NCBI RefSeq assembly: GCF_900105475.1
Contig: NZ_LT629777.1
Span: forward strand, 6,014,001-6,078,000
Direction of reading: 5' to 3'
DNA length: 64,000 nt
Source of the DNA: Pseudomonas asplenii
GTDB lineage: Bacteria > Pseudomonadota > Gammaproteobacteria > Pseudomonadales > Pseudomonadaceae
Shown here: piece after piece, positions 31,640 to 36,001 of the stretch
Layout: each line of letters starts with the position of its first letter
Position numbering within the stretch: position 1 is the stretch's first letter
The notes under the pieces: model-generated
Database searches by the model: none
Told to the model about the DNA's origin: nothing
The model's input: the letters and a program-made list of their open reading frames with translations, nothing else
Program-made: the position numbers and the translations under genes

Positions 31640-33886
31640 TCAGGCGCTTTCCTTGAACACCGGCAAGGTGAACCGGAACTCGGCACCTTGACCCGGCTCG
31701 CTGTTGGCCACGATCTGCCCGCCATGGGCATGGACGATGCCCTGGGTGATGTACAGACCCAGGCCGGTGCCGGTCGGGTTGCCCTCTTTCAACGTCCAGT
31801 AACGGCTGAACACATGCGGCAGGTTTTCCTGGGCAATGCCTTCGCCGCTGTCACGCACGGTGAAGACGGCTTCACTGCCCGATGACTGCGCGCGTACCCC
31901 AACCGTGCCCAGGCGCGGGGTGAACTTGATCGCATTGCTGACCAGGTTCGACAGTACCTGGAACAGCCGTTCGGGATCGGCGTGGATACGCAAGTCGGGC
32001 TCGGCCTCGAAGGAAATGCTGATGGCCTTGTCCAGCGCCAACGGCGCCAGCAGCGATTGCGCCTCTTCGAACATCTGCCCCACATCCAGCTTCTGCGGTT
32101 TGATCGTGTAGCGCCCGGCGTCGATCTTCGAGGTATCGAGCAGGTCCTCCAGCAGCGTATTCATGCGCCCGGCGGCCTGTTGCATGGTGTCGATGGCCGT
32201 GGCGATACGCCGCGAGGTGTGCGAGCCGTCCGAACTGAAGGTCTTCTGCATCATGCCGCAGAGCATCGAGATGACCGTCATCGGATTGCGCAGGTCGTGA
32301 GAGACCACCGCGACCAGATCATCACGGGCGCGCACCGCTTCCTGCTCACGCCGCACTTGTCGGGCCAGGTCGTTTTCCAGCGCCGAACGGCGCAGATCCT
32401 TGGCCGCGAACAGGTCGCCGTGGCTCCACTTGGTCGAGATCCCGGCCATCTCGACCTTCCAGATCTCGAATGAAGTCCGTGGCCGCAGGCGCATGCCCAT
32501 CTCGGAGTTTTCCAGATCCAGTGGCTTGCTCGGATTACCGCTCCAGTTGATGCTGTCCTTGACCTCGGGCCGGAACCACAGCACGCCGTTTTCCACCGGC
32601 TTGGGCAGACTCATGGCGAGCACACCGCTGGCCACCTGCTGATAGGCCGCAGCAGTTGGGTAGACACTGGACAGATGATGGCTGGCGAACACCGGCTCGC
32701 CGGACGCCTGCCACCATTGGTGCAGCGCGCGGATCTCCTGCGGAGCCGGGCAGTTGCCATAACAGTGCAACTGCTTGTCCTCAATGATCGCAATGCCGCC
32801 GGCATTGACCAACGCCATCAGGACCTGTGACTGATTAGCCAAACCGTCAAAGACGTTTTGCGGCGAGTCGATCATCGCCTGGTTGAGCACTGCCAGGGCC
32901 TCGACCTTTTCTTCGCGCTGGCGACTGACCTCCAGCGCTTCCATTGCACTGATCTGCAGGGAGAGCACCTGGCCGATGGTCTGGCAGGCAATGCGCAATT
33001 CATGCGGCACGTGCAAGGGCTGACGGTTGCCACAACTGATCAGGCCCCAGAGCTTGTCGCCCTTGAGCAGGGAAATGCTCATCGACGACAGCACGCCCAT
33101 GTTCTTCATGTACTGGCAGTGGATCGGCGACACACTGCGCAGGGTCGCAAAACTCAAGTCCAGCCGCGTCCCCGTGTCGGGGCGCAGCTTCGGCACCAGC
33201 GGCACCGGCTCGTAATCGGCATTGGGGATGATCCGCAGCCAGTTGGTGCGATACAGCTCGCGCGCCTGCTCGGGAATATCGGACGCCGGGAAAAACAGCC
33301 CGTTGAACAGCTCCATGGATGGCGAAGACGCTTCGGCGATAACCTGGCCGTGGCCCTCCTCCTCGAAACGGTAGATCAGCACCCGGTCGTAACCGGTCAT
33401 CGCCTGCACTTCCTTGACGCAGATGTCGTACAGGACCTGCAGCGATGTCGCCGCTTGCAGCCGCTGCAGCATCCGGCCCAGGTTGGTCTGGTTGCCGGCA
33501 ATGTTCAGCGACTGGAAATTCTCGACGTGGATCTCCAGTTCCAGAATCAGCACGCCCTCATGCCGATGCAACAAGCCTTCGAACGCGGTGCCATTGAGCT
33601 GGAAATACAACGGTGGCGCATCGAAAAACGCCGGCTGCTGCAACGCCTCGCACACGTCCGCCGTGTACTCGTCGCCGAGCAGACTGGACAAGGACTGACC
33701 GATCAATGTCTGCGGCGCGCGGCCGAGCAGGGTTTCGACGTTGGCGCTGACCTGAATGATCTCCAGGGCCGGCTCACTCAGGGTCAACAGCAGGCCATGG
33801 GGCTGGATGGCGCCGGGAAAGCGGATCGGCTCGTTGGCACAGTTGTCCAGCAGCTCTTCGAATACTTTTTTATCTTGCAGGGGCAT
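31640..33886 (-). CDS. bphP: Bacteriophytochrome sensor histidine kinase
   Basis: 748 residues. The PAS-GAF-PHY photosensory core comes first: the biliverdin-attaching cysteine is Cys16 in LDNCANEPIRFPGAIQPHG, the GAF domain has the FPASDIPEQARELY motif, and the PHY tongue is WFRPEVKDSINWSGNPSKPL. The transmitter follows, with the phospho-accepting histidine in VAVVSHDLRNPMTVI and ATPase boxes NLVSNAIKF, VRDSGEGI and GTGLGLYI. It senses red/far-red light using biliverdin made by BphO. The start overlaps the bphO stop by 17 bp, so the two are coupled. No response regulator is adjacent. In-frame sequence upstream of Met1 belongs to bphO read in another frame. Confidence 0.95.
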   Translation of the reverse strand: MPLQDKKVFEELLDNCANEPIRFPGAIQPHGLLLTLSEPALEIIQVSANVETLLGRAPQTLIGQSLSSLLGDEYTADVCEALQQPAFFDAPPLYFQLNGTAFEGLLHRHEGVLILELEIHVENFQSLNIAGNQTNLGRMLQRLQAATSLQVLYDICVKEVQAMTGYDRVLIYRFEEEGHGQVIAEASSPSMELFNGLFFPASDIPEQARELYRTNWLRIIPNADYEPVPLVPKLRPDTGTRLDLSFATLRSVSPIHCQYMKNMGVLSSMSISLLKGDKLWGLISCGNRQPLHVPHELRIACQTIGQVLSLQISAMEALEVSRQREEKVEALAVLNQAMIDSPQNVFDGLANQSQVLMALVNAGGIAIIEDKQLHCYGNCPAPQEIRALHQWWQASGEPVFASHHLSSVYPTAAAYQQVASGVLAMSLPKPVENGVLWFRPEVKDSINWSGNPSKPLDLENSEMGMRLRPRTSFEIWKVEMAGISTKWSHGDLFAAKDLRRSALENDLARQVRREQEAVRARDDLVAVVSHDLRNPMTVISMLCGMMQKTFSSDGSHTSRRIATAIDTMQQAAGRMNTLLEDLLDTSKIDAGRYTIKPQKLDVGQMFEEAQSLLAPLALDKAISISFEAEPDLRIHADPERLFQVLSNLVSNAIKFTPRLGTVGVRAQSSGSEAVFTVRDSGEGIAQENLPHVFSRYWTLKEGNPTGTGLGLYITQGIVHAHGGQIVANSEPGQGAEFRFTLPVFKESA

Positions 33887-34496
33887 GCAGTACCTCGCGA
33901 CTTTCGAGCCAGTGCTCGAAACAGCCGAATGTCGATTGTGCTGCCGTGACGACAGCCTGGCGCTCGACCGTTTCCATCGATCGACTGCCCAGGTATTCAA
34001 TGAAATCGCGCCAGCGCCGCCCGGTGGCGTCGCCATAGACATGCAGAAATCCCGCGCCGCTCTCAGCTTCAATGCCCAGCCGTTTGGCGACCTCCCGGCG
34101 CAGGATCTGCCCGCCGAGCGTGGCCCCTTCGAGTACGTAGAGCACGCCCAGGCAGGCGGCACTAGAGTCGACCACGGGTAATGCCGGGCAGATCGGCAGG
34201 TTGTCGATAGCCTCGACCGACAGCCCCAGGGCGTGCAGATCGCGGCGCAGGGTCTGGACCTTCAGGCGGGGTGCCAGCTCGAAATCGGCAGGAAACACGC
34301 TGCTGTCCTGCAGGGCGCTTTCCAATGGACGATAGAAACCGTAATAGGCCTGCATCAACCGTTGAAAGGCCTTCGCGTCGAGGCTGTCGGAGAAAAAGGG
34401 AAGGCGTTTTTCCAGGGCGATATGACGTTCGGCCGTTCCAGTTCGCAGATCCTGCAGAACCGGGGGTACATGAACTTCGCGGGCCGTTGCTTGCAT
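33870..34496 (-). CDS. bphO: Heme oxygenase (bacteriophytochrome-associated)
   Basis: 208 residues from MQATAREVHVPPVL. It opens heme to biliverdin, the BphP chromophore, releasing CO and iron. The proximal heme-ligand histidine is in LRTGTAERHIALEKRL and the conserved YYGFYRPLE helix follows, with the distal glycine-rich helix YVLEGATLGGQILRREV: the HemO/BphO signature. Start at 34496 with AAGAGCGA upstream; the extra 20 codons are rejected. First gene of a bphO-bphP operon. Confidence 0.93.
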   Translation of the reverse strand: MQATAREVHVPPVLQDLRTGTAERHIALEKRLPFFSDSLDAKAFQRLMQAYYGFYRPLESALQDSSVFPADFELAPRLKVQTLRRDLHALGLSVEAIDNLPICPALPVVDSSAACLGVLYVLEGATLGGQILRREVAKRLGIEAESGAGFLHVYGDATGRRWRDFIEYLGSRSMETVERQAVVTAAQSTFGCFEHWLESREVLHAPAR

Positions 34497-34702
34497 TAAT
34501 GTCGCTCTTGGTGGGGTTGCCTGCTGCCATTTGGGCGTAGCGACGAATGCCGTCAATTTATCACGATAGACAATAACACTGACTCAATCGTTGGTTTTTC
34601 CCGCTCAACGGATTACGGAAATGCTCAAAAGTGGCAGGGAGGGCATGGCCAGCGGCCCCTTCGGAGCCACTTCAGCGAACCAGGCCATGAACGAACGGTG
34701 CA

Positions 34703-36001
34703 TCAGGGGGCTGAGGCTCGTTGTGCAACCGCCCCGCCCTGCTGAGCGTGCTCCGGCGTCAGCACAAGCGGCAGTTCCAGAATAAAGAGCGCGCCCTTGC
34801 CGGGCCCCGCGCTCTGTGCAGTCAGATTGCCGCCCAGTTGCTGCGCGGCGAGAATGCAGCTATGCAGGCCAAAGCCATGGCCGGTGGGACGCGTGGTAAA
34901 ACCGTGTTCGAACACCCGCGCGAGATGATCCGCGCAAATGCCCTCGCCGTTGTCCTCAACCTCGATTCGTACGCGCTGGTCATCAGTGGCCTTCAGGCGC
35001 AGGATGATCCGCAACGACCGCTCCTCGACAGACTCAAGCGCCTGCTTGGCGTTGTTGATCAGATTGATCAGAATCTGCAGCACCTTGTGCTTGTCCAACG
35101 CCATCGTCGGAATATCGTTGAACTCCTTGACCAGCGTTATCTGATGGCGGGCCAGGGAGACGTCGCAGATGCGTACCACATCCTCGATCAACTCCTGAAG
35201 CGAACCCGACTCCAGCATGCTGGAGTTGCCGGCATAGGACTGCTGGGTCGTGACAATGTCCCTGATATGCTCGATGCTCCTGGTCAACTGCGCCAACTCG
35301 TCGATCATCGCCTGCTGCTCGAGCACCAGCGCATCCGCCAGTTTGGCGAGGTAATCCGGCAGCGCGCGCCCTCTCGGATCGTGGTTGATGAAGTCACCAA
35401 GATCGTCGGGGTGCTCCTTCATCAGTTGAACGACCCGGGCCACTCCCTGCCCCTTGAAGGCCCGCACCTTGTCGTACAGTACCTGGGCCGACACATTGAC
35501 GCTATTGAGCACGTTACCCACGTTATGCAGCACGTTGGTGGCGATTTCCGCCATACCCGCCCGGCGCGCGGTAGTGACCAGTTCGGCCTGCGCCTCGCGC
35601 AACTCGTCGTTGACCCTGGCCAGTTGCTGCGGGCTGGGGATCTTCAAGGCAACCGGCACCAGCTTGACCAGCAGGATGGCGGTAATCACCGAAGCGATGG
35701 CGGTGATCACCTTGACCAGTGCCGACAGCCAGTAGTACGGCTTCCATATGGTCACGATCTCCATCACATGGCTGGTCCCGCAGGCCAGAATAAACACGCC
35801 GAAGGCCCCGAACATCCAGTCGAAGGGGATGTCCTTGCGCTTGCGGATGAAGTAGATCAGCGTAAAGGGAATGGTGACATAGCAAAGAGCGATGAGGCCA
35901 TCGGACAGCACATTGATCCAGAGCAGATCCGGGCGCCATAGATAGCAGTGGCCGTGAGGCATGAAGCGGTTATCGGTCAACAGCGCCAGGAAACTGTTCA
36001 T
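34703..36001 (-). CDS. Histidine kinase with ETR1-like ethylene-binding membrane domain
   Basis: 432 residues. The first about 120 residues form three membrane helices that align with the Arabidopsis ethylene receptor ETR1. The ETR1 residues Asp25, Tyr32, Ile35, Pro36, Ile62, Cys65 and His69 correspond with identical spacing to D34, Y41, I44, P45, I71, C74 and H78 (CGTSH for CGATH), and Cys/His are the copper ligands there. A segment KVITAIASVITAILLVKLVP also matches. The cytoplasmic part has a coiled linker, a histidine box (VLHNVGNVLNSVN) and ATPase boxes (LINNAKQALE, VEDNGEGI, TGHGFGLHS). Ligand binding is inferred, not shown. No response regulator adjoins it; bphOP lies next door. Confidence 0.9.
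   Translation of the reverse strand: MNSFLALLTDNRFMPHGHCYLWRPDLLWINVLSDGLIALCYVTIPFTLIYFIRKRKDIPFDWMFGAFGVFILACGTSHVMEIVTIWKPYYWLSALVKVITAIASVITAILLVKLVPVALKIPSPQQLARVNDELREAQAELVTTARRAGMAEIATNVLHNVGNVLNSVNVSAQVLYDKVRAFKGQGVARVVQLMKEHPDDLGDFINHDPRGRALPDYLAKLADALVLEQQAMIDELAQLTRSIEHIRDIVTTQQSYAGNSSMLESGSLQELIEDVVRICDVSLARHQITLVKEFNDIPTMALDKHKVLQILINLINNAKQALESVEERSLRIILRLKATDDQRVRIEVEDNGEGICADHLARVFEHGFTTRPTGHGFGLHSCILAAQQLGGNLTAQSAGPGKGALFILELPLVLTPEHAQQGGAVAQRASAP

Follow-up and report, generated by a model that had tools for sequence, protein, structure and literature searches.

A gene of the plant-associated bacterium Pseudomonas asplenii encodes a histidine kinase whose N-terminal domain is an ethylene-binding domain (EBD) of the plant type. 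All residues on which ethylene binding by ETR1 is known to depend are present in the domain, and because this set is complete, in a pseudomonad, perception of ethylene appears to be the best reading of the protein's function. Our preferred explanation, which we regard as fairly probable, is that the protein would act as a membrane ethylene sensor kinase in which the EBD is mounted on a kinase module of the HNVGN/DAHL family and signals to receivers of the DDTxSIH type and to c-di-GMP. The features described below (Table 1) lie in a window of 64,000 nucleotides, the whole stretch of DNA that was analysed. The nearest database protein to the kinase was P0001 (99%), which is named Pseudomonas asplenii.

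Table 1. Features of the EBD kinase gene and its neighbours, with positions in the window
Feature	Position	Strand	Basis and remarks
EBD histidine kinase gene	34703..36001	-	ATG start, 432 aa, no interruption; Pfam ETR1_N and HATPase_c
Ethylene-binding domain (EBD), residues 26-121	35639..35926	-	Pfam ETR1_N
PHGHCYLW motif, residues 15-22, immediately ahead of helix 1	35936..35959	-	Conserved in bacterial EBDs
Presumed dimerisation/phosphoacceptor helix, residues 125-168, with HNVGN H-box	35498..35629	-	Sequence motif
HATPase_c catalytic domain, residues 303-412	34766..35095	-	Pfam, E 1.7e-17
bphO heme oxygenase ORF	33870..34556	-	Pfam Heme_oxygenase, E 5.4e-18; neighbour, not conserved with the kinase
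bphP bacteriophytochrome	31640..33874	-	PAS_2, GAF, PHY, HisKA, HATPase_c; listed ORF extends to 34162; neighbour here, adjacency to the kinase not conserved

The open reading frame matched the Pfam ETR1_N model with an E value of 4.3e-38 and 129.9 bits against a cut-off of 27, and a phmmer search of kinase residues 1-125 against a small custom set recovered plant ethylene receptors at E values of 2e-16 to 1e-15. The resemblance is far beyond chance. A sequence-only reading made earlier had judged it to be well beyond chance and had named a profile search as a check; this search placed the domain in ETR1_N and not in an unrelated family. The seven ETR1-equivalent residues that the same reading had assigned to D34, Y41, I44, P45, I71, C74, and H78 were found exactly there, and a MAFFT alignment with the plant receptors P0122, P0192, and P0213 revealed identical residues in all seven columns in all three. 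K97 aligned with the corresponding lysine of these receptors, and all eight residues lie within the EBD interval. In AzoEtr1 of Azospirillum brasilense, likewise a proteobacterial EBD histidine kinase, D35, C75, H79, and K98 are described as the counterparts of ETR1 D25, C65, H69, and K91 (PMC11819568), and D34, C74, H78, and K97 of the present protein display identical spacing. A structure model of low confidence (mean pLDDT 55) predicted EBD helices at residues 24-54, 61-84, and 91-118, and a comparison of the EBD sequence with solved structures returned 0 matches at E <= 10.

Ahead of the first helix, P, H16, G, C19, and W22 of the PHGHCYLW motif were almost invariant across the bacterial EBDs examined. 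H16, C19, and W22 were all retained in 20/20 Pseudomonas proteins, and in the other proteobacterial EBDs they were present in 25/28, 26/28, and 26/28 sequences, respectively. C19 aligned with a cysteine of the plant ethylene receptors, which keep the cysteine alone of the PHGxCxxW pattern. Could this motif serve in copper delivery, or might it form a disulfide-linked dimer?

The EBD family was identified in 20/298 Pseudomonas genomes, this one included, with one match per genome, which supplies the count in Pseudomonas that the earlier reading had proposed. It was also detected in 29/398 Pseudomonadota genomes, 28 of them above the cut-off, and was absent from 14/14 control genomes; the 29th non-Pseudomonas locus (L128), below the family cut-off and with no phmmer match, entered no count. 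Seven duplicate loci were removed. All eight residues (the seven and the lysine) were kept in 20/20 Pseudomonas sequences, although the copies diverge to 60% identity, and in 17/28 aligned EBD sequences from other Pseudomonadota, a count that includes L126 and L127, which were excluded from the EBD tree. This conservation bears on an alternative that we consider unlikely, namely, that the domain is a membrane sensor whose copper site serves a ligand other than ethylene, such as copper, CO, another alkene, or a redox state. The choice of ligand is not readable from sequence alone, and the genome holds no ACC deaminase above the curated cut-off (232.6 vs 392 bits), so this ethylene-related gene lends no support to ethylene; below-cut-off matches to the same model also occurred in 6/14 control genomes. 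However, the seven residues required for ethylene binding in ETR1 are preserved in 20/20 Pseudomonas copies, and ethylene binding has been shown for AzoEtr1, in which these seven are all retained (PMC11819568).

The remainder of the protein points to a kinase type that is already at home in pseudomonads. HATPase_c was recognised; HisKA gave no Pfam match at E <= 1, and the expected position is occupied by an HNVGN H-box, of which H159 is the presumed phosphorylated histidine, while the N, G1, and G2 boxes are readable as NLINNAKQAL, DNGEGI, and GHGFGLH. Residues 125-420 were 53.7% identical to each of two kinases with a DAHL domain (PF19443) in the same genome, at 2.823 and 5.837 Mb, and the H-box LHNVGNVLNS is common to all three. 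Pseudomonas DAHL-domain HNVGN kinases of this kind (e.g., L130:7934-9745) have the same H-box and likewise give no HisKA match; their sensor is the DAHL domain, whereas the EBD kinase carries ETR1_N in that place. The HNVGN H-box was present in 20/20 Pseudomonas EBD proteins vs 0/28 other proteobacterial EBD proteins, the latter count being over the available sequence, since many of these 28 loci span only 3.3 kb and the protein is cut. Five other proteobacterial EBD proteins that were scanned exhibited four ordinary HisKA domains and one HWE kinase domain. The H-box distribution, together with the 53.7% identity, suggests that the EBD sits on a resident pseudomonad kinase type. Most histidine kinases have E or D after the H-box histidine; HNVGN has N, and for this reason the EBD kinase might act mainly as a phosphatase.

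Trees of the two parts suggest how the fusion could have arisen. The Pseudomonas EBDs formed one clade (SH-aLRT 99, in an EBD tree that carried a long-branch warning), which fits a single acquisition, and the EBD probably reached Pseudomonas once. In the kinase tree, which was built without L039 (the G124 copy), 17/19 EBD rows formed one clade with a support of 99, and the rows from G070 and G079 grouped with two non-EBD kinases (support 92). This split allows for one or two fusions, and the EBD was thus probably joined to a resident DAHL-type kinase once or twice.

A dedicated response regulator encoded locally was rejected as the partner of the kinase. The 10 neighbouring ORFs that were scanned included no receiver, and the nearest of 108 receiver matches in this genome lies about 22 kb away. 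The relatives of the kinase module offered another candidate. At 2.82-2.83 Mb in the same genome, the gene of a DAHL kinase has a receiver-kinase gene after it and two receiver-GGDEF-EAL genes before it, and the three receivers of this cluster are of one divergent type that starts with (I/V)DDTxSIH. A cytochrome-c-peroxidase-like gene (by eye) lies in between, and the cluster is adjoined at about 2.82 Mb by a gene for a 630-aa MAC/perforin-domain protein (L130:4356-6245, E 1e-21). The second receiver-GGDEF-EAL protein (L130:10745-12613) lacks the GGDEF signature that was searched for, and its cyclase may be inactive. Across 18 neighbourhoods, comprising all non-EBD HNVGN kinase matches at E <= 1e-90 (16 from other genomes and 2 from this one), a DAHL kinase stood beside a DDTxSIH receiver-kinase in 10; the other 8 were devoid of a receiver-kinase, one of them with a 60-residue partial match.

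The most direct association was found in genome G149, where the EBD kinase gene (L023:9187-10431) and a receiver-PAS-GGDEF-EAL gene on the other strand (L023:10418-12661, stops included in both) converge with a 14-bp tail-to-tail overlap, stop codons counted. The G149 receiver is 63-71% identical to the three receivers of the cluster described above. In that genome, the DAHL kinase matched nothing but the EBD kinase at E <= 1e-60 (65/71 candidates scored), and the receiver-PAS-GGDEF-EAL gene was the only full-length match among the matches listed, whereas the other 19 carriers hold full-length DAHL kinases besides the EBD kinase. Among the 19 carriers other than the present genome, G149 was the only one in which the stretch retrieved around the EBD kinase contained a DDTxSIH receiver. 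With the best 3 candidates per genome scored, an orthologue of the receiver-PAS-GGDEF-EAL protein was detected in 69/298 genomes, that is, in 20/20 EBD carriers vs 49/278 others (Fisher p 2e-14). A first control of 20 non-carriers, in which 54 candidates were scored, had yielded the orthologue in 6/20, and these were the same 6 positives. Since 16/20 carriers share one site, they are not independent and represent three or four lineages; given the 49/278 background, co-occurrence in all of these would arise by chance with a probability of about 0.005 or 0.001. In the present genome, the orthologue lies at about 2.83 Mb, about 3.2 Mb from the EBD kinase, and the GGDEF and EAL signatures and the receiver Asp are present in both this protein and that of G149.

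The tail-to-tail arrangement in G149, where no further member of the family was found, is the ground for our proposal of a path from ethylene to c-di-GMP. By analogy with the known members of the family, C74 and H78 would hold Cu(I), with D34 positioning it, and the metal would bind ethylene in the membrane; the third helix, with K97, would relay the change to the dimerisation helix. The later steps are modelled on the linkage in the relative: ethylene would alter the phosphorylation of H159, the phosphoryl group would pass to DDTxSIH receivers, chiefly that of the receiver-PAS-GGDEF-EAL protein, and c-di-GMP would be reset, with consequences for attachment or motility. We tentatively propose, while leaning slightly toward doubt, that a DAHL-type kinase resident in pseudomonads exchanged its sensor for a plant-type EBD and thereby became a direct ethylene-to-c-di-GMP switch acting via the receiver-PAS-GGDEF-EAL enzyme, of which the G149 pair would be the minimal two-gene version.

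The kinase gene does stand beside bphO-bphP in this genome, as the sequence-only reading had stated; both genes follow it in the same orientation, with 146 nt between the kinase gene and the bphO ORF. The reading had suggested perception of a plant hormone next to a light sensor, which implied a link between the two. The hormone part is supported by the seven residues, but the light part was not, since bphOP was adjacent in just 1/20 carriers (1/12 of those having both genes). In the 12-19 kb around the other 19 EBD kinase copies, neither bphO nor bphP was found, and in the other 11 double carriers the EBD kinase and the phytochrome were separated by no less than 600 kb or did not share a contig, as judged from bphO in G112. 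Phytochrome matches occurred in 12/20 carriers vs 188/298 genomes overall, with 8/20 carriers having none, and the comparison of carriers with non-carriers revealed no co-occurrence (Fisher p 0.81). Conversely, none of the six best-matching bphOP loci had an EBD kinase within 19 kb. A light link was accordingly rejected as a general rule, and the kinase and phytochrome do not form a stable unit resembling SynEtr1. The position of the kinase beside bphOP is probably due to chance and at most characterises this lineage. For the same reasons, we find it improbable that the ethylene sensor kinase is co-transcribed with bphO-bphP here and shares a response regulator with the phytochrome, thereby integrating light and ethylene. 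The common strand and the 146-nt gap, in which no promoter- or terminator-like site was found between the kinase and bphO, would suit such an arrangement, as would the precedent of SynEtr1, described in PMC11819568 as a receptor for both light and ethylene in one protein. Nevertheless, the terminator scan was of limited power (2 sites in the region vs 4.7 in shuffles), the closest receiver match that could supply the shared regulator is about 22 kb off, and the rarity of adjacency and the lack of co-occurrence weigh against it.

The other copies occupy other genomic settings. Sixteen of the 20 Pseudomonas copies share one site between yifB and glnK (names assigned by motifs and reading by eye); these are loci L024-L039, with the kinase between the two genes in 16/16 of one clade and amtB following in 15/16. 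The interval could be an integration hot spot, and a link between the kinase of this clade and nitrogen control is possible. Because a small opposite-strand gene separates the kinase from glnK in locus L036, no operon with glnK is claimed. Extra genes lie between in some of these loci, by eye including a GMC-oxidoreductase-like gene. Three of the 20 copies are located near gyrB-recF-dnaN (ORFs read by eye). An EBD-like N-terminus joined to a different kinase was also noticed, by eye, in a protein of an Acidobacteriaceae MAG (L052:9890-11500). That the EBD kinase gene is a recently acquired or decaying relic with no current role here seems very unlikely to us: the patchy occurrence (20/298 genomes), a G+C content of the EBD part (0.567) below that of both the kinase part (0.612) and the whole window (0.622), and an in-frame stop in 1/20 copies (that of G124, L020 / L039) would be in keeping with it, but the present ORF is open with readable N, G1, and G2 boxes, and the eight residues persist in all 20 copies down to 60% identity.

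Bacterial ethylene receptors are already known, and the EBD kinase is not a new kind of protein. In treating an EBD in a pseudomonad as a novelty, the sequence-only reading overstated the case; proteobacterial receptors have been published, and direct ethylene binding has been shown for AzoEtr1 of A. brasilense (PMC11819568). As described there, AzoEtr1 has 525 aa and a PAS domain, and its gene is closely followed by one for a 135-aa receiver; unlike it, by this published description, the kinase here has no PAS match, carries an HNVGN H-box, and has no receiver gene nearby. SynEtr1 of Synechocystis is likewise a bacterial EBD histidine kinase and signals by phosphorelay, and according to the published descriptions (PMC11819568, PMC10452086) the protein itself includes a phytochrome-like light domain, whereas here the phytochrome is encoded separately and, in the other carriers possessing one, away from the EBD kinase gene. 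The plant ETR1-type receptors P0122, P0192, and P0213 share with the present protein an EBD in which the seven residues and also the lysine occur; P0192, the one scanned, adds GAF, HisKA, and receiver domains, and overall identity is about 27%. What is new is the architecture, namely, an EBD mounted on a kinase of the HNVGN type, for which c-di-GMP is a possible output. The Pseudomonas EBD kinase was undescribed in the literature that we found on ethylene receptors, Pseudomonas, c-di-GMP, and DAHL, although Carlew 2019 and Lacey and Binder 2016 may list it.

Ethylene is a main stress and defence hormone of plants, and the carriers named in the databases include P. brassicacearum, P. kilonensis, P. 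thivervalensis, P. corrugata, P. ogarae, and P. citri, some of which we take to be tractable rhizosphere bacteria. The EBD kinase may sense this plant gas and connect it to c-di-GMP, a messenger that controls biofilms. In A. brasilense, ethylene lowers both biofilm and c-di-GMP by a route that the AzoEtr1 authors call unknown (PMC11819568); for an effect of this kind, the two genes of G149 suggest a specific route that is open to test. If rhizosphere pseudomonads sense ethylene, their colonisation could follow plant stress directly.
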